From positions 1 through 31,529 of IMG/VR virus record IMGVR_UViG_3300044530_001673: DNA of 31,529 bases; one strand, written 5' to 3'. How positions within the stretch are numbered: the first letter of the stretch is position 1; each line of letters starts with the position of its first letter. A model generated the notes under the pieces. It was not told the DNA's origin. It ran no database searches and saw only the letters and a program-made list of their open reading frames with translations. The DNA is from a virus. Of this stretch, positions 1 through 26,703 are shown in pieces. The translations under genes and the position numbers were made by a program.

Positions 1-2293
1 TTTGAGTTCTTTCTTTTGCTGGCGTGAGAGCAAATCCTCGCTGACTTGAATTATTTTCTTTTTCTGTCTCAAGGAATTCTTGAAAAGCAATCGCATCATC
101 AACCAGCTTCTTGTCTTCAGGAGACAAGTTTTCCTGGCCACCAAGAGTTTTGATAACTTCATCAGCAGCTTGCTTCTGACCAGCATACATTTCATCAATG
201 GCAGCTTTTATTTCATCTGTGCTTAGCATTCGCACATCAATGTCGCCACCAATTCCAGATTGATCAGCAACAGCTTTCAAGTTGCCGAGAGAGTCCATGA
301 ACTCTTTGTTAATTATGAACTCGATTTCTTTCTGGGTCTTTGGATCAGTTTTTGATGCACTTGTGATACTTGAATTTATCTTTGGCAGAATTTCATTCTC
401 AATGTGATCTATTTCAGCTTGAGCATCACGAGGAGTTATTGTTGTATTGCCAATTGTGCGTTTTTTGGCAGAATTGACAATGTCTTTAAGAAGACCAAGT
501 CTTGAATCTACGACCTCTTTGCGTTTGTTCAATTGATTAACAAAATTAACAGGATCAGCAAGAGACTTTAATTTGTCCTTTGTCGAATCGTCAAGATCCT
601 GCATCATCCTGTTGATGTCAGCTTCAGCAGCAACACGCTGGTCTGCACGAACACGATCAACGAGCAAGCTCTTTGGCGAAGAAGCTGAAATGAATCCCAT
701 GCCACCTCCATAACCAGTGGCCTCGCCAACATCACCCCATGTTTCCATGTTTGGCAATCCAAGCATAACTTGAACTGCTGCACCATTGATGCCAGCTTTG
801 GCATAATACTGAGCAAGCCTTGAAGCAGAATCGACAGCACGCGCACGAGCCAGCCCTTGGCGTGCTCCTTTTTCCATCTTTTCAGCAGCCTTTTCAGCCT
901 CTGCAGCAGCCTCGACAGGCGACATCTCACCAAGTTTTTTACGCAATCCTTGGCTTCCGTCTCCGAAAAGGACATTGCCAAGACGGCCAGTTGTTGGACT
1001 TTGACCAAGACGCTCAGCAATACCTTTGCGTCCAGCAATACCAGTGTCGATGACGCGACCAATGTCTGTGCCAAAACGACCAACACCTTCAATCAAACCA
1101 GAACCTCTGCCAAGGAAATTTGATGTTTTTCCAACAGCATTGCGGAAAATCCAATCGTCACTTCCGCTGATTGCTCGATCTATGTTTGCAGAATATTCAT
1201 TTATTTTTTCTCCAAGACGACGACCAGCCCAGCCAACTTTCTCAACTGCTGGAGCAACACCAATGCGACGATTGCCAACTTGGACACCTGTGAGACCTTT
1301 TAAAGCTACTTCCCCAATCTTTCCTGTAGCCTTTGCTGTCAGAGGAGCAACTCTGTTCATCAATGGAATGTCAGGAGCGACAATATCGCCAAGTGTTGCA
1401 ACTTCAGGAATCAATTGCTCTTTCGTGAGAGCTCGCTCTCTGAATTGCTGAGCAAGACCTTCAGAAAATGTTTTATCAAGAGCTCCAATTTTTCCAAGGC
1501 CAAGAGAAACATTCTCAAGAAGAGCAGAACTGCGCTCTGGCATCCGCTCTTGCTCTTTGGCAAATTCTTCGCCAACAGCTTTGCGTTTTAAATAGTTCTG
1601 ATACGATTCTTCTTCTGTCTGTGCACCGACAAGCTCCTTTGCCCAATCAGTGATTGGTGTGCCACCTTTGTAAACAGTCTTTGGCAATTTATAAACAATA
1701 TCTTCAATTCCTCCTACAGCACCAGAACCAAATGATCTTGCCACTTGCTCAGCTTTCTTAAGTGCTTTAGCCTCTTCTTCTGGAGATGCATCCATTGCAC
1801 CAATCGGATCAAAAACTCCATACTTGACACCTTTATAAATTCCAACTGGAATGTCTGTCGCTATATCCTCAAGACCTTTTCCTGCACGACGCATAAAGTC
1901 GCCAACTTTACGAGTAGCTGGCATGTCTCGCTCATACTTCCATGCAATCTTTTCTTGCTCCTTGTCTAATGGAACTCCTTCTTCTTTGTATTGCTTTAGC
2001 TTTGAAGGATCTTTCTCTGTCTGAATTTCTGCAATCTTCTGAGCATCTGCCAAGTCTGCTTCGTCCTGCTTACGCTTTTCTTCAGCCTCTTTTTTAGCTT
2101 TGCGAAGAAGAGCATTTTCTTCTTTTGTAAAAATAGGATCATCATCCAACTCATCAGCAATTTGCTGCTCTTCTTCTGGCGTCAATGGAGATCCAGTTGG
2201 CACTGGAACTTCATCTTCTTTTAGCTTATCAGAAACTCTCTTTCCCCAGTTTAGCATCGACTGAGGAACCATCGGGATTGACGGAAGTGTCAT
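1..2293 (-). CDS. Very large virion protein, N-terminal part (internal virion/ejection type)
   Basis: The frame is open from ATG 2291-2293 to the left edge: 764 codons with no stop, so the gene continues outside. Residues 1-120 are acidic and Lys/Glu-rich (ALLRKAKKEAEEKRKQDEAD). Residues ~125-330 hold Gly-containing amphipathic segments (RKVGDFMRRAGKGLEDIATD, PVGIYKGVKYGVFDPIG), and ~330-480 similar 'GRFGTDIGRVIDTGIAGR' stretches; the remainder is long charged helix. No lysozyme or protease motif is visible in this part. A giant helical protein last in the virion block fits the internal core proteins of T7-like phages (gp15/gp16 role), which are ejected and form a channel for DNA. Function is inferred from size, composition and place. 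Confidence 0.68.
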   Translation of the reverse strand, partial: MTLPSIPMVPQSMLNWGKRVSDKLKEDEVPVPTGSPLTPEEEQQIADELDDDPIFTKEENALLRKAKKEAEEKRKQDEADLADAQKIAEIQTEKDPSKLKQYKEEGVPLDKEQEKIAWKYERDMPATRKVGDFMRRAGKGLEDIATDIPVGIYKGVKYGVFDPIGAMDASPEEEAKALKKAEQVARSFGSGAVGGIEDIVYKLPKTVYKGGTPITDWAKELVGAQTEEESYQNYLKRKAVGEEFAKEQERMPERSSALLENVSLGLGKIGALDKTFSEGLAQQFRERALTKEQLIPEVATLGDIVAPDIPLMNRVAPLTAKATGKIGEVALKGLTGVQVGNRRIGVAPAVEKVGWAGRRLGEKINEYSANIDRAISGSDDWIFRNAVGKTSNFLGRGSGLIEGVGRFGTDIGRVIDTGIAGRKGIAERLGQSPTTGRLGNVLFGDGSQGLRKKLGEMSPVEAAAEAEKAAEKMEKGARQGLARARAVDSASRLAQYYAKAGINGAAVQVMLGLPNMETWGDVGEATGYGGGMGFISASSPKSLLVDRVRADQRVAAEADINRMMQDLDDSTKDKLKSLADPVNFVNQLNKRKEVVDSRLGLLKDIVNSAKKRTIGNTTITPRDAQAEIDHIENEILPKINSSITSASKTDPKTQKEIEFIINKEFMDSLGNLKAVADQSGIGGDIDVRMLSTDEIKAAIDEMYAGQKQAADEVIKTLGGQENLSPEDKKLVDDAIAFQEFLETEKENNSSQRGFALTPAKERTQ

Positions 2294-5565: not shown

Positions 5566-6369
5566 TTAGCTCCTTAGTCCACAATATGGAATTTTAGGCT
5601 CACAGGTCTGAACTGACTCTGATATGTTTGGGATTACCATGCCATTTAACTTTGGGCATTTGACATATTCAGGTGAATTTTTATTTATGCAATTTGTGCA
5701 TGTGTGATAATAGTCGCTATTCAGGTGCTTGTCTTGCTTTGTCTTGATGATGCCATCAATCACTTCATATCTATTTCTGTCAAATGGAATATCATTATTC
5801 AGCGTATAGTCTGAAATGTTTTTCTCAGTCCACTCCTTCAAAGGGAACCAAATGTCTGCAGAATTTGGAATTCTCTGAACATCGACCTGAAGTGGAATTG
5901 GCCCACTCAACGGATCAACATCGCAGCTTTTGTGGCCACAGATCAAACTATCCCAAACAAACTCTGTGTTGTCAATTTTAGGACGCAACAGCCATTCAAC
6001 ACCACATACATAATCTTTTTCAGCTTCGTGTGGTTCTGTCCCACGAGCGATGATGATATTTTCTTGTCCTATGGAGTATGATTCCATGAAATCGATGCGA
6101 TCATTACCATAGCAAAGTGATATTGATTTTGGTGAAGAATCATATGCTGTCAAATTAAAGTCTTGAGAAATTTTATTCTGAAAAGCCCATTTTGCTTTCA
6201 TCCACGGCAGCGTCCACTGAATGCAGTCGATGTCTTTTTTAAGAACATCTTTTATCATGAAAAACAAAACAGTGCTGTCTTTTCCTCCAGACCAAAGCAA
6301 TGCAGGTCGTTTTGATTTCTCAAAAACTAAAAGCAAAGACTCGATTGTTTTTTCTATTAATGTTATCAT
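5566..6369 (-). CDS. PAPS reductase-family (adenine nucleotide alpha hydrolase) protein
   Basis: A 267-residue protein with the PP-loop SGGKDS at residues 27-32 after strand 'RPALLW'. GHKSCDVDPLSG (145-156) forms the second phosphate-binding region, and WFPLKEWTEKNISDY (174-188) plus NNDIPFD (191-197) match the 'PL-x-x-W-T-x-x-D/N-I-x-x-Y...N-x-I-P' helix of PAPS/APS reductases. Cysteines C224, C227, C238, C256 and C263 cluster at the end and could bind metal or an Fe-S cluster; the classic C-terminal ECG motif is absent. It would handle an adenylated or sulfated nucleotide. Such genes are common in environmental phages with no settled role. It lies inside the virion genes and is coupled to both neighbours. 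Confidence 0.82.
   Translation of the reverse strand: MITLIEKTIESLLLVFEKSKRPALLWSGGKDSTVLFFMIKDVLKKDIDCIQWTLPWMKAKWAFQNKISQDFNLTAYDSSPKSISLCYGNDRIDFMESYSIGQENIIIARGTEPHEAEKDYVCGVEWLLRPKIDNTEFVWDSLICGHKSCDVDPLSGPIPLQVDVQRIPNSADIWFPLKEWTEKNISDYTLNNDIPFDRNRYEVIDGIIKTKQDKHLNSDYYHTCTNCINKNSPEYVKCPKLNGMVIPNISESVQTCEPKIPYCGLRS
5570..5575 (-). promoter_or_regulatory. Ribosome binding site AAGGAG
   Basis: AAGGAG lies five bases before the ATG at 5564 and within the last codons of the reductase-family gene. It supports the short 48-residue gene that follows. Confidence 0.75.
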
Positions 6370-22473: not shown

Positions 22474-23685
22474 TTACAGACCAGTCGAAGAGCTGCCTAC
22501 GCATTCCTCAAGACCAGTGTTGAAGGTGCAACGCTTGTAAGCAAACGGAACAACAGCATGTGGACGGATCGGCTGATAAGCACGGCTGATCTGGTAGATG
22601 TGTTGACCGAAGTCAAGGAACAAGTTGCAATCGTTATCACGCTGAGCAACCCACTCGAGTTCACCCATCGCGAGCTGCGGAGCGAACTTGAAAGTTCCTT
22701 CGCCAGAGTAACGCTCAGGAGTCAGACGCGAGAAGCTGTCACCAGCAACCACAAATCCAATCTCATAGTTAGCGTTAATCCAAGCTGGATTGCGACGAGC
22801 TCCACGGCCATTGGAAACAGTAACACCAATCTCAGGCTCGATAAGGACAGGACGTCCTTGGCCATCAAAGGTATTAAAGCGCAGTGGCTGAGAGTCAACG
22901 CCGAAAGCAAAACCGCGATAACCTTGGAACTGATAGCCAGTCAAAGCATCGTTTCCGAGCTTGAACGAACCAGCAGTAACATAGTTGAGGTCTTCTTTGA
23001 CATCGGCATCATTGCGGAAAGCCTCAACTTGGTCAATCGAAGCGATCACCATAAAGAAGTCACCAGCAGAGGTGCCAAATGGCTCAGCAAGCAGATCTTC
23101 GCGAAGGAGCGATCCGAGCTTGTAGAGAGTTTTGAAATTCATCTGCGCATCAGGGAGCGCATTGTAGAATTTCGTGTCAATGGCCTGAGACTCGCCAGTG
23201 ACAAGAGTGTCAAAGGAAAGACCCTTTTTGGCCAAGAACTTTACACCAGAGCGATTCAAAAGAGTCGCACGGATATCAGAGTTCATGATTTGGAGGATGC
23301 CTTTTTCCAAAGCCATCTGGGCTTGGAGATATGCACCTTTGAACGCAGTGCGCGAAGTTTTTACGCAGACACGAGGACCACGACCACGCAGAGACTGCAG
23401 TTGGTAGGTATACTCGGTAGAGCCAACTTCGTCAGCATCAGCACCAGTTCCACAAAGCGTGACATCATCGCTGAATGTCGGATTTGCGAGGCTGGACTGA
23501 AGAACTGCTCGTTCTTGAACAACAGAGCGGACAACATCCGAGACATTCGGAATCGTTCCACCCTTGAGGATATTCATGTAAGGAGATTTGCGAGCAAGAA
23601 CCTTGCCAATCTGTCCTACAATTCGGTTTGTGTCTTTTGCGGCGAAATTTTGAACCGCAGACAAGTCAATACAATCGTTTGCCAT
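22474..23685 (-). CDS. Major capsid protein
   Basis: A 403-residue protein without membrane or signal segments, downstream of the portal and scaffold genes and isolated between a long leader and a strong terminator-like hairpin, as expected for the most abundant virion protein. The N-terminal 40 residues (LSAVQNFAAKDTNRIVGQI...) are helical and the body is mixed, consistent with an HK97-type shell protein, but I cannot show the fold from sequence. Codon use is strongly biased: from 22558 to the start no TTA, CTA or TCA codon occurs, which leaves a 396-codon open frame on the opposite strand. That fits high expression. Cysteines near both ends (C5, and C388/C397 region) are notable. The function call rests on position, size and bias. 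Confidence 0.82.
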   Translation of the reverse strand: MANDCIDLSAVQNFAAKDTNRIVGQIGKVLARKSPYMNILKGGTIPNVSDVVRSVVQERAVLQSSLANPTFSDDVTLCGTGADADEVGSTEYTYQLQSLRGRGPRVCVKTSRTAFKGAYLQAQMALEKGILQIMNSDIRATLLNRSGVKFLAKKGLSFDTLVTGESQAIDTKFYNALPDAQMNFKTLYKLGSLLREDLLAEPFGTSAGDFFMVIASIDQVEAFRNDADVKEDLNYVTAGSFKLGNDALTGYQFQGYRGFAFGVDSQPLRFNTFDGQGRPVLIEPEIGVTVSNGRGARRNPAWINANYEIGFVVAGDSFSRLTPERYSGEGTFKFAPQLAMGELEWVAQRDNDCNLFLDFGQHIYQISRAYQPIRPHAVVPFAYKRCTFNTGLEECVGSSSTGL

Positions 23686-23904
23686 AATATTTACAATTTG
23701 AGTTTGTGCTTTGTGATGCTGTTAGGCATCGTTGAGGTTGAATTTTGATGGAAAATTCCATCACTACTTTTCGTCCTCGGCACGCTAGGACTTTGTTGCG
23801 GCCAGTCTGCAGCAGCAGGTCTGATGCTCACCAATTGCTATCGGCAATCACTCGTAATCATCGAATCGTCCTATATTTTGATATCGTCAAGGAAAATATT
23901 TAAT
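23686..23904 (-). promoter_or_regulatory. Capsid gene leader with several inverted repeats
   Basis: This 219-base gap is the longest non-coding stretch in the window. It precedes the most expressed structural gene. I see four short inverted repeats: 23715-23730 (GATGC/GCATC), 23747-23762 (GATGGA/TCCATC, loop AAAT), 23773-23791 (GTCCT/AGGAC) and 23834-23848 (ATTGC/GCAAT). TAGGAC at 23786-23791 can alternatively pair with GTCCTA at 23868-23873. A TTGACG (minus strand, 23885-23890) could be a -35 box, but no good -10 is at the right distance. There is no Shine-Dalgarno before the capsid ATG. A capsid promoter and/or structured 5' leader is inferred. Confidence 0.45.
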
Positions 23905-24612
23905 TTATAAAATCTTTTTTCTAACAAGATCAATTGCTGTGTCGTCTTTTACGCCATGCAACCAAACGCAGTGTGTTTTTACAAGGCCATCAAATTCTTT
24001 TTCTGTTAAATCTTTTTTTCTGTAAAGATTCTGTATTGTTTTTATTTTTTTCCATCCAGCCTTTTCAAATTCATCTGCGAACCAAGTGTCCCAAGCACGT
24101 GTTTCAGAACAACCAATAATCTTTGGGCTTATTCTTGAGACCATAGGATGGAACATTGCATTGCCATTGATGTGTCCAATTTCGTGCTCTCCACTATCGT
24201 GCCAGCACCCTGCGACAGAATAATCCTTGTCCCATTCTGCGATTAATTTTTCTTGCCAGTCTTTTGCGATCGGCAAAGCATCAACCTCAGTTGTTAAAAT
24301 AAATTTATAGTTCCATTTCTTCTTCGTGTGCTGATTTGCTGAATGATCCATAAGATCGCACCAAACTCCATTAGACCCACCAGGAAAACCAACCTCACGA
24401 CGTGCAGACCTATGCACGTGGACTGTCTCGAAACTCTCAGCCAATATATTTTCTAATTTTTTGTTCGCTGGACAATCCCTGCGATAAACAACACAGCAAT
24501 CTGCATGATCAAAATGCTGGTCTCCTGCAAAATCAGAAAGCAATCTTGCTATCTTTATTGCTTGTGGGATTTCGTCTTGATAAACTTGCAGTGCGTATAG
24601 GAATGTTTTCAT
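23905..24612 (-). CDS. Putative glycosyltransferase-like protein
   Basis: A 235-residue protein starting MKTFLYALQVYQDEIPQAIKI. YKFILTTEVDALPIAKDW (residues 102-119) looks like the DxD strand with the variant E-V-D; GHINGNAMFHP (146-156) resembles the acceptor loop of GT-A enzymes ('NGNaaY/F'), AWDTWFADEF (173-182) would be the catalytic acidic helix, and CVWLHGVKD (215-223) has the late His. It is the last gene of the modification cassette; its ATG overlaps the upstream stop. A weak AAGAAA precedes the start. After its stop comes the 219-base capsid leader. Similar proteins are common in environmental phages, but the substrate is unknown. Confidence 0.7.
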   Translation of the reverse strand: MKTFLYALQVYQDEIPQAIKIARLLSDFAGDQHFDHADCCVVYRRDCPANKKLENILAESFETVHVHRSARREVGFPGGSNGVWCDLMDHSANQHTKKKWNYKFILTTEVDALPIAKDWQEKLIAEWDKDYSVAGCWHDSGEHEIGHINGNAMFHPMVSRISPKIIGCSETRAWDTWFADEFEKAGWKKIKTIQNLYRKKDLTEKEFDGLVKTHCVWLHGVKDDTAIDLVRKKIL

Positions 24613-25289
24613 TTTAGTATTTCTTCAATTTTGTTTATGTGATCTGCAATTCCTCCCCATGACCAATGTTGAATTGCGTATGTTTCTTTTTCTTCTGATT
24701 TTAGCCACGAGAATTTATCATTGTGATATCTATATGCCCATTGACCGAGTGTGTTGAACTCGCTATAGGTGCGGTATGGTTGTGAACAGATCCAAGTTTC
24801 AAGCTCGTGCTTCTGGTTTTGTTTGACCCATTTCCTGAAATCTTTGTATATCCAGCGTGGATAAATTATTGGCAGTCTCCGCATGTATTCTTTTTCATCA
24901 AGCCAACCAAGTGTTATCCTTGCTATTGGTGGCCAAGGAGACACAACATCTGTATCATAAAGAATTATTGGCTTTCCATATTCGAAAAAGTTTTCAGGAT
25001 GTGTTTCTTTAAAAAATACACAATCGCTGTCAACATGCAAAATAAAATCTGCATCACAGTAATTGTCAGCATACATTTTTGTCACCTGTTGTGCAAGATA
25101 CCCTTCACAACTATCGCAAACTCCATGGACAATTTCTCCATCTAAAAAATCTATTTTAGAAACATCTTCATTTGGAACTGCAATATGGACATTATTAAAA
25201 CCTTTGCAGAACTTTCTTATGCTCTTTAAACAATATTTTAACCACTCAAAATCATTGCTGTATGAACGAATAAATATGTCAGTTTTCAT
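24609..25289 (-). CDS. Putative glycosyltransferase (GT-A, DSD motif)
   Basis: A 226-residue protein beginning MKTDIFIRSYSNDFEWLKYC, typical of small GT-A enzymes where the first strand binds the nucleotide. ADFILHVDSDCVFF at residues 80-93 carries the DxD motif (D87-S-D89). Downstream features include YPRWIYKDFRKW and, near the C-terminus, the aromatic stretch YAIQHWSWGG, where His and Trp could close the active site. It resembles the DUF6492 glycosyltransferase-like family as I remember it. It is coupled by a four-base overlap with the methyltransferase upstream and with the next glycosyltransferase downstream. Donor and acceptor are unknown. Confidence 0.74.
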   Translation of the reverse strand: MKTDIFIRSYSNDFEWLKYCLKSIRKFCKGFNNVHIAVPNEDVSKIDFLDGEIVHGVCDSCEGYLAQQVTKMYADNYCDADFILHVDSDCVFFKETHPENFFEYGKPIILYDTDVVSPWPPIARITLGWLDEKEYMRRLPIIYPRWIYKDFRKWVKQNQKHELETWICSQPYRTYSEFNTLGQWAYRYHNDKFSWLKSEEKETYAIQHWSWGGIADHINKIEEILK

Positions 25290-25933
25290 TTAGTTGTGCA
25301 AAGAATATCATACTGGTCTCCTTTTTCTGGGAATGGTTGAGTTGTGTAGCCAAGCTCCGCCAAGAAGTTTTCAATTTCCTGTGGGGTAGTGTTGTTGGCT
25401 TTCAAAGCTCCCACATTGATCTCAATCCACATTTTGGGTTTGAACTTCTGGATTGTTTTCAGTGCGCCACGCAGGACGTTCAATTCAAAGCCCTCAACAT
25501 CAATCTTGATAAATGAAACAGCCTTGATTGCCAAAGTGTCCAAACATATTGTTTGAACCTTGCTGGTGCCAGTGCCAGTGATCCTGCCAGCACCAGCATT
25601 CGGATTGGTTTCATACGACAGGAGTTCTTCCTTGTCCGACAAGCCGACATTGAAAACCACAGCACCACGACAGTTGTGCTTGAGACAATCAAATGCTGCA
25701 TTGTTAGGTTCAAACGCATACACGTGACCATCCTTGCCAACCTTGTTCAAGTAGGCAAGGGTGTGATCGCCGATGAATGCTCCAACATCAATCACAGTCG
25801 CTCCCGCCTCAATGTGGCTTAGGATTGTCGGAAGTGCATATTGATCATGGTCAAGTCGGCCAGACTCCTCAACCCATTTTGAGATGTGAGTGTCGCCATC
25901 AATGACTGCGATGTTGCCATGAACAAATTTCAT
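25286..25933 (-). CDS. FkbM-family SAM-dependent methyltransferase
   Basis: A 215-residue class I methyltransferase. Motif I is VIDVGAFIGDHTLAYL at residues 47-62; the acidic end of strand 2 is YAFEPN (72-77). The FkbM hallmark FIKIDVEGFELNVLRGA lies at 141-157, followed by MWIEIN (168-173). FkbM enzymes O-methylate sugars or polyketides, often on glycans. Sitting between glycosyltransferase genes, it most likely caps or decorates a glycan made by its neighbours. It overlaps both: start with the upstream stop and stop region with the downstream start, each by four bases. No Shine-Dalgarno is evident, so coupling may drive translation. Substrate is inferred from context only. Confidence 0.85.
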   Translation of the reverse strand: MKFVHGNIAVIDGDTHISKWVEESGRLDHDQYALPTILSHIEAGATVIDVGAFIGDHTLAYLNKVGKDGHVYAFEPNNAAFDCLKHNCRGAVVFNVGLSDKEELLSYETNPNAGAGRITGTGTSKVQTICLDTLAIKAVSFIKIDVEGFELNVLRGALKTIQKFKPKMWIEINVGALKANNTTPQEIENFLAELGYTTQPFPEKGDQYDILCTTK

Positions 25934-26703
25934 AACACTTTGCTCAGATTCGAGGTGTGAACTCCGTATGTTCCATAGCCAACATGGATGGCCTGTAGCT
26001 TGGTATCAACATATGGCTGAAAACCACACTCACGAGCTCGTCGACAAAATGCAATGTCTTCTCCAGCACCATCGGTATCAGGTTGAAAGAAGTTCCATGG
26101 CAACTCGTCATTTGCTGGTGCCAATTCAGGGAACTGAGTCATCATTGTTTCAAACACTTCGCGCTTGATCAACATGCAGCCAGTGCCGAGCCAATTGCAT
26201 GGCATGGCAGAGTCGGCGAATGAATTCACTCGCTCTCGATATTCAGAATCATTGTGCAAACTATTTATGGCACGACCATCAATGTGGCGGCCAAAATAAG
26301 TTGCACCGACAATTGGCTTGTCGTGAGCGATCAACCGATGAATTGTGTGAAGTTCCAAAGCTGAATCCGGATAATCGTTTGGCAATCGGCACATCTGGCG
26401 CATGAACTGCGGACGACCAATTGGCAATATCATATCATCATCAATAAACAAAAGCCATTTTGCTTCTGTCTTCATGAATTTCATTGCAAGGTTATTGCGA
26501 GCATGATAGATCATGGCATCGCCAATTTCCATATCAAACCGAATTTTTTCCTTGCCAATGTCAAGAGCCATTGCCAAAAGACACCAAGCTGTGACAGGAT
26601 TGGTTTGCTTGTAGCAAGGAAACCCAACAAATAAATCACGACCGAGCCATTCCGAGGAGCAAGCCATTGCTGGTTGCTCCTTCTTCTTTTTTGTTTGTTT
26701 CAT
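25930..26703 (-). CDS. GT-A type glycosyltransferase
   Basis: A 257-residue protein. After a basic N-terminus (KQTKKKKEQ) comes a GT-A core: residues 81-93 read AKWLLFIDDDMIL, where the Asp triad at 88-90 is the metal and nucleotide-sugar binding DxD motif. Residues 170-180 (NWLGTGCMLIK) and 213-220 (AGEDIAFC) match the acceptor-side loop and the catalytic 'ED' motif of family-2-like enzymes, and IHVGYGTYG (239-247) supplies a late His. It would move a sugar from a nucleotide donor to an unknown acceptor. AAGGA lies six bases before the ATG, inside the scaffold gene's end; TAATG junction. It is the first of a four-gene cassette between scaffold and capsid. Sugar and target cannot be told from sequence. 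Confidence 0.8.
   Translation of the reverse strand: MKQTKKKKEQPAMACSSEWLGRDLFVGFPCYKQTNPVTAWCLLAMALDIGKEKIRFDMEIGDAMIYHARNNLAMKFMKTEAKWLLFIDDDMILPIGRPQFMRQMCRLPNDYPDSALELHTIHRLIAHDKPIVGATYFGRHIDGRAINSLHNDSEYRERVNSFADSAMPCNWLGTGCMLIKREVFETMMTQFPELAPANDELPWNFFQPDTDGAGEDIAFCRRARECGFQPYVDTKLQAIHVGYGTYGVHTSNLSKVL

Follow-up and report, generated by a model that had tools for sequence, protein, structure and literature searches.

The sequence data point to an enzyme-acceptor pair in an uncultured phage lineage: GT1, the first enzyme of a gene cassette that is the rule throughout the lineage, and the C-terminal tail of the major capsid protein (MCP). Our main reading, to which we give a probability of roughly two in three, is that the cassette glycosylates the capsid. 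GT1 would act on Ser/Thr residues of the MCP tail and the later genes would extend and O-methylate the sugar, yielding a phage-specific glycan. The window, that is the whole stretch of DNA analysed, is a fragment of viral DNA from IMG/VR, 31.5 kb long, whose main genes are encoded on the minus strand. The order of transcription is portal-like gene, 86-aa ORF, scaffold-like gene, GT1, FkbM, GT2, GT3, a 219-nt gap, MCP, then tail and fibre genes (Table 1).

Table 1. Features of the cassette and of its flanking genes in the window.
Feature	Position	Strand	Basis
Portal-like protein, 752 aa	28264..30522	-	Inferred from position after the TerL-like gene in relatives
Scaffold-like protein, 422 aa	26703..27971	-	Inferred from position between the portal-like gene and MCP
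GT1, predicted GT-A glycosyltransferase, 257 aa	25930..26703	-	AF2, Foldseek/VIA-align, phrog_1574
FkbM-family methyltransferase, 215 aa	25286..25933	-	PF05050, TIGR01444; substrate inferred
GT2, putative GT-A-like glycosyltransferase, 226 aa	24609..25289	-	DUF6492, DSD 87-89; activity inferred
GT3, putative glycosyltransferase, 235 aa	23905..24612	-	EVD 109-111; homologues in many cassettes
Major capsid protein (MCP), HK97-like, 403 aa	22474..23685	-	Foldseek on weak model, conservation, gene order
MCP C-terminal tail ...CVGSSSTGL + stop codon, proposed O-glycosylation site	22474..22503	-	Conservation, link to GT1 residues

The first-pass annotation had described four cassette ORFs on the minus strand, and all four lie where it placed them, with the DDD, DSD and EVD motifs at the residues it gave. 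It had also described coupled starts between the scaffold and capsid genes. Coupling holds within the cassette, where start and stop codons overlap by 1 nt at the scaffold/GT1 junction and by 4 nt at the other three junctions, but it does not extend to MCP: because 219 nt separate GT3 from the MCP start, MCP is without translational coupling to the cassette. A promoter and terminator scan returned nothing beyond what shuffled sequence gives.

The flanking genes fit scaffold and capsid by gene order, although their identities are less certain than had been claimed, since no convincing sequence-family match was found for MCP, scaffold or portal in Pfam and PHROG. The structural model of MCP was weak (pLDDT 52). 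Nearly all of its best 30 PDB matches were HK97-fold capsid chains, with a best E of 1.2e-3. The protein is highly conserved (77% mean column identity), and the gene order in relatives is TerL-p200-portal-scaffold-cassette-MCP. On the strength of the HK97-type matches, the conservation and the gene order, we regard it as the major capsid protein. The lineage is uncultured and no cultured relative was found: tblastn matched MCP, portal and TerL to none of 50,697 phage records, the MCP profile had no match in bacterial genomes, and literature searches on this lineage or gene arrangement found nothing. PDB profile searches with MCP, as well as with GT1, returned nothing useful.

Some further observations concern the rest of the structural module. 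A 396-aa antisense ORF lies over the MCP gene (window 22558-23748, plus strand), and some dozen relatives (cluster c31) have similar long antisense ORFs over MCP; the probable cause is the codon usage that accompanies high expression. At window 5566-6369 (minus strand), an ORF has a weak PAPS reductase/CysD match confined to an N-terminal loop. Its counterpart is kept in a relative, adjoining tail genes (L172:9353-10162). Very large ORFs of 3,936 aa (G020:14389-26199) and 3,468 aa (G012:2261-12667) end the structural module in relatives, and the partial edge ORF at window 2-2293 may belong to such an ORF.

The claim of three GT-A-like enzymes is borne out for GT1, whose GT-A model is confident, while for GT2 and GT3 the resemblance to glycosyltransferases lies in their motifs only. 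The AF2 model of GT1 reached a pLDDT of 86 and aligned with GT-A proteins at Z scores of 16-18 (VIA-align). Its best structural matches (Foldseek/VIA-align) were the LH3 accessory domain, A197 of STIV (Z 17.1), mimivirus R699, yeast Mnn9 and COLGALT1, the viral A197 being the nearest stand-alone fold. The motifs of GT1 are DDD 88-90, GTG 173-175 and GED 214-216. In GT-A enzymes of the GT2 type, the DXD motif binds metal and nucleotide sugar, and the ED motif belongs to the catalytic base region. GT1 is thus predicted from its model to be a GT-A glycosyltransferase with a DXD and a downstream ED motif; its acceptor cannot be read from the shared fold alone. The family phrog_1574 was matched by 47 of 48 GT1 homologues. 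Phage relatives retrieved by tblastn were less than 60% identical, and the two that were inspected both lie in other contexts. Homologues of the second clade (for example L058:7085-8098 and L065:8203-9183) carry about 100 extra low-complexity N-terminal residues with a conserved peptide like SPxExxTxxALDSxNPFxTPxxP, missing from the window GT1; this extension may serve to dock on scaffold or capsid.

Concerning the partner enzymes, the FkbM methyltransferase named by the first-pass annotation is certain, with 87.7 bits against PF05050 (cut-off 22.7; 1.3e-24) and 92.4 bits against TIGR01444 (cut-off 37.7; 3.4e-26). Its role is probably O-methylation of a sugar. GT2 exceeded the Pfam cut-off for DUF6492 only (3.7e-6) and matched Stealth_CR2 weakly. 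As GT3 matched no family in Pfam, PHROG and TIGR profile searches, its identity as a glycosyltransferase rests on its motif and context.

Relatives were searched for the same cassette at the same site, a check that had been put forward with the original claim. The sample consisted of the loci of 80 MCP relatives, among which 62 locus records, several of them from the same contig, had both scaffold and MCP called. All 62 have a GT1 homologue between these two genes, in 61 of them directly after the scaffold gene, and such constancy shows that the arrangement is not due to chance. The same arrangement is found in L117, where MCP is 59% identical, and extends to a deep group (L337-L351) with MCPs about 45% identical to that of L117. 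Four loci called without GT1 (L341, L346, L347 and L351) reflected a gene-calling artefact; GT1 is present in them.

The space between scaffold and MCP ranges from 1.2 to 5.7 kb in these loci. Further cassette genes include c6 (with an SDYD motif), the GT-B-like c10 and the GT-like c37, whose labels rest on motifs read by eye, as well as a class I methyltransferase (c22), a GDP-fucose-synthase-like epimerase (c128) and an FGE-sulfatase-domain protein (c28). Since contigs with near-identical MCPs carry different enzyme sets (L012, L015, L016, L019), GT1 is the core of the cassette and the other genes are exchanged. Enzyme swapping beside conserved capsids suggests diversifying selection on capsid sugars. 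In part of the lineage, the c28 protein, which combines a signal-peptide-like start with an FGE-sulfatase (SUMF1-like) domain, is encoded immediately before MCP (L058:8944-9927, L057:8972-9955 and 12 others). A diversity-generating retroelement behind this FGE-like gene was considered and rejected, no reverse transcriptase having been found in 22 contigs.

The link between GT1 and the capsid came from the C-terminal end of MCP. There, an invariant Cys is followed by a short Ser/Thr-rich tail (VGSSSTGL, LTSSTGL, STSSTGL, STSATGL) that is kept across clades despite a diverged core, and no other protein in the four genomes checked has this C-terminal motif. In an initial table of 116 records, MCPs without the tail adjoined GT1s with altered active-site motifs. 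On a tree of MCP cores built with the tail excluded, the two changes coincided three times. Among the GT1 columns conserved in tail-bearing phages, those altered in all three lineages were Glu215, of the GED motif, and Thr174, changed to Ser. The co-variation appeared perfect in the initial table; wider sampling, which brought the set to 121 distinct MCP/GT1 pairs, added the exceptions L404/L407, a fourth lineage in which Glu215 is lost and Thr174 is Ser while a minimal ATGL tail is left. In the 121 pairs, Glu215 is lost in 24 rows belonging to four independent lineages, all without a Ser/Thr-rich tail. Ser replaces Thr174 in all of these 24 rows but never in the remaining 97, and neither change was seen beside a Ser/Thr-rich tail.

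The relation is not one-to-one, because L404/L407 keep ATGL with an altered GT1 and because the tail is shortened beside an intact GT1 in two lineages, L161/L324 (VTGL, ETGL) and L062 (DTGL). If four GT1 changes are placed at random according to branch length, the probability that every one of them lands where the tree has lost the tail is 2e-4 to 6e-4, values that are slightly too small as L062 was not counted as tail-lost. With only four independent losses, a phylogenetic sign test is unable to reach significance, and some of these data had already served to frame the tail hypothesis. The next enzyme, c6, provided a control: its DxD-like motif is intact in 14 of 15 cases in the tail-less lineages, showing that the change in GT1 is not a general decay of the cassette. 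The retention of GT1 and c6 in tail-less phages implies that at least c6 must have another role. We infer that the Ser/Thr tail may be the acceptor rather than a docking site of GT1.

Under the capsid glycosylation reading, GT1 would be produced together with the scaffold and capsid proteins and would transfer the first sugar to Ser/Thr of the MCP tail. GT2, GT3 and FkbM would then extend and O-methylate the same glycan, as gene order, cassette composition and precedent suggest. Each phage would thereby gain its own capsid glycan, and loss of the acceptor would relax or redirect GT1. As to the purpose of the glycan, capsid shielding or surface binding is our guess. A broader version, in which an assembly-coupled glycosylation island occupies a fixed site lineage-wide, with GT1 priming the tail and rapidly exchanged enzymes varying the glycan, is more tentative, and we rate it somewhat short of an even chance. 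If true, phages with near-identical capsids would wear different sugar coats.

Several of these observations can be read otherwise. The cassette might glycosylate another virion protein, such as a fibre, tail or decoration protein, with the MCP tail only docking GT1. This would suit the intact c6 found where the MCP tail is lost, and two articles describe cluster O mycobacteriophages as modifying the tail tube besides the capsid (PMC11600133, PMC12619734). Such a target is nevertheless rather improbable, since the cassette genes are fixed at MCP, not at the fibre genes, and MCP alone has the C-terminal motif in the genomes checked. Still less probable is an action on the surface glycans of the host, which might for instance prevent superinfection. 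Temperate phages can have glycosyltransferases that alter the serotype of their host (PMC12619734), but the cassette sits inside the structural operon and the link of GT1 to the MCP tail argues against a host-glycan role. The retention of GT1 as an intact 300-aa ORF in L075 (8756-9658) and L190, where its DXD is destroyed (GEQ) and the entire partner cassette is gone, would suit a GT1 serving chiefly as an assembly factor for the MCP tail, with catalysis secondary. We consider this very improbable, because nearly all other GT1s retain both DXD and GED and because an assembly role leaves the partner enzymes unexplained.

The first-pass annotation had favoured the virion over DNA as the target. 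For GT1 this is supported by the link, across the 121 pairs, between its active site and the MCP tail, and by the retention of a cassette of varying content between the capsid genes; for GT2, GT3 and FkbM the rejection of DNA is less safe. The phage might make 5-hydroxymethylcytosine, and some or all of the cassette enzymes might glycosylate and methylate it before packaging. Clade-1 relatives have a gene of the thymidylate-synthase family, and in the PDB its product is best matched by the CMP 5-hydroxymethylase MilA. The gene is present in G020 and G024 (MCP 93% and 97% identical, respectively) and in other clade-1 contigs; the carriers are G020 (L171:8493-9314), G024, G001-G004, G027 and G030 (L354:767-1690). 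The clade-1 protein has Asp where thymidylate synthases have Asn, at what we take to be the cytosine-recognition position, and a dCMP deaminase and a thymidylate-kinase-like gene lie nearby. The MilA match and the Asp at the Asn position make hydroxymethylcytosine DNA likely in clade 1, and because close relatives encode this CMP-hydroxymethylase-like gene, DNA hypermodification is possible for GT2, GT3 and FkbM. However, hydroxymethyl-pyrimidine synthesis was found in clade-1 relatives only, and not in every cassette-bearing phage: none of the second-clade contigs searched (15, then 20, most of them near full length) yielded the gene. These gene-negative contigs include G032-G034, with GT3 in their cassettes, and GT2 and FkbM in L295, GT1 being present in all. 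TET/JBP enzymes occur in only 2 of 22 contigs and a C5-methylase in 3 of 22. In G030, a separate locus groups a dNMP kinase, the hydroxymethylase, a primase, an AGT-like glycosyltransferase (just below cut-off) and a C5-methylase, so that this phage has a distinct glycosyltransferase beside its hydroxymethylase. Given the absence of the gene from the second-clade contigs searched and the separate locus of G030, DNA is a minor rival for the partner enzymes. As the residues of GT1 follow the MCP tail, we hold DNA modification by the cassette to be unlikely, and glycosylation of the capsid remains the preferred reading.

To our knowledge, glycosylation of phage particle proteins has been shown in few systems. 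As with T4-type AGT and BGT, the phage glycosyltransferases of the lineage are found in genomes that can also carry a hydroxymethylase-like gene; AGT and BGT are however of the GT-B fold whereas GT1 is a predicted GT-A enzyme, and the AGT-like match in G030 is located outside the cassette. The window cassette proteins gave no match to the AGT/BGT families, in searches where the BGT positive control was also without a match. PHROG_1574, matched by GT1 homologues, is given no function. In STIV, A197 is an essential GT-A enzyme and the capsid protein B345 is glycosylated, the acceptor of the enzyme being unproven (PMC10551542). Like GT1, A197 is a small stand-alone viral GT-A enzyme. Unlike the window phage, STIV is an archaeal virus with a double-jelly-roll capsid and a single enzyme.

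The closest parallel in layout is provided by the cluster O mycobacteriophages, which temper the claim of an unusual capsid-decoration system: the placement has a precedent in their enzymes lying between portal and MCP. In Idergollasper (cluster O), the order is portal-O-methyltransferase-hypothetical-GT-GT-protease-hypothetical-MCP. According to articles citing Freeman et al. 2023, the cluster O enzymes modify capsid and tail tube (PMC11600133), and mycobacteriophage glycans are carried at the C-termini of the capsid and tail tube proteins (PMC12619734). Cluster O and the window both have a methyltransferase and glycosyltransferases placed ahead of MCP in the head operon. The methyltransferase is however TylF-type in cluster O and FkbM in the window, the cassette follows the portal gene in the former and the scaffold gene in the latter, and glycosylation, proposed for the window, is proven by experiment in cluster O. 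Comparison of the cluster O enzymes and MCP with the window families gave no profile match at E up to 10. The system would thus work like known virion glycosylation, yet it is no homologue of the mycobacteriophage cassette. Overall, a system of this kind is already known; what is new is the lineage, the enzymes and the co-variation between enzyme and capsid tail.
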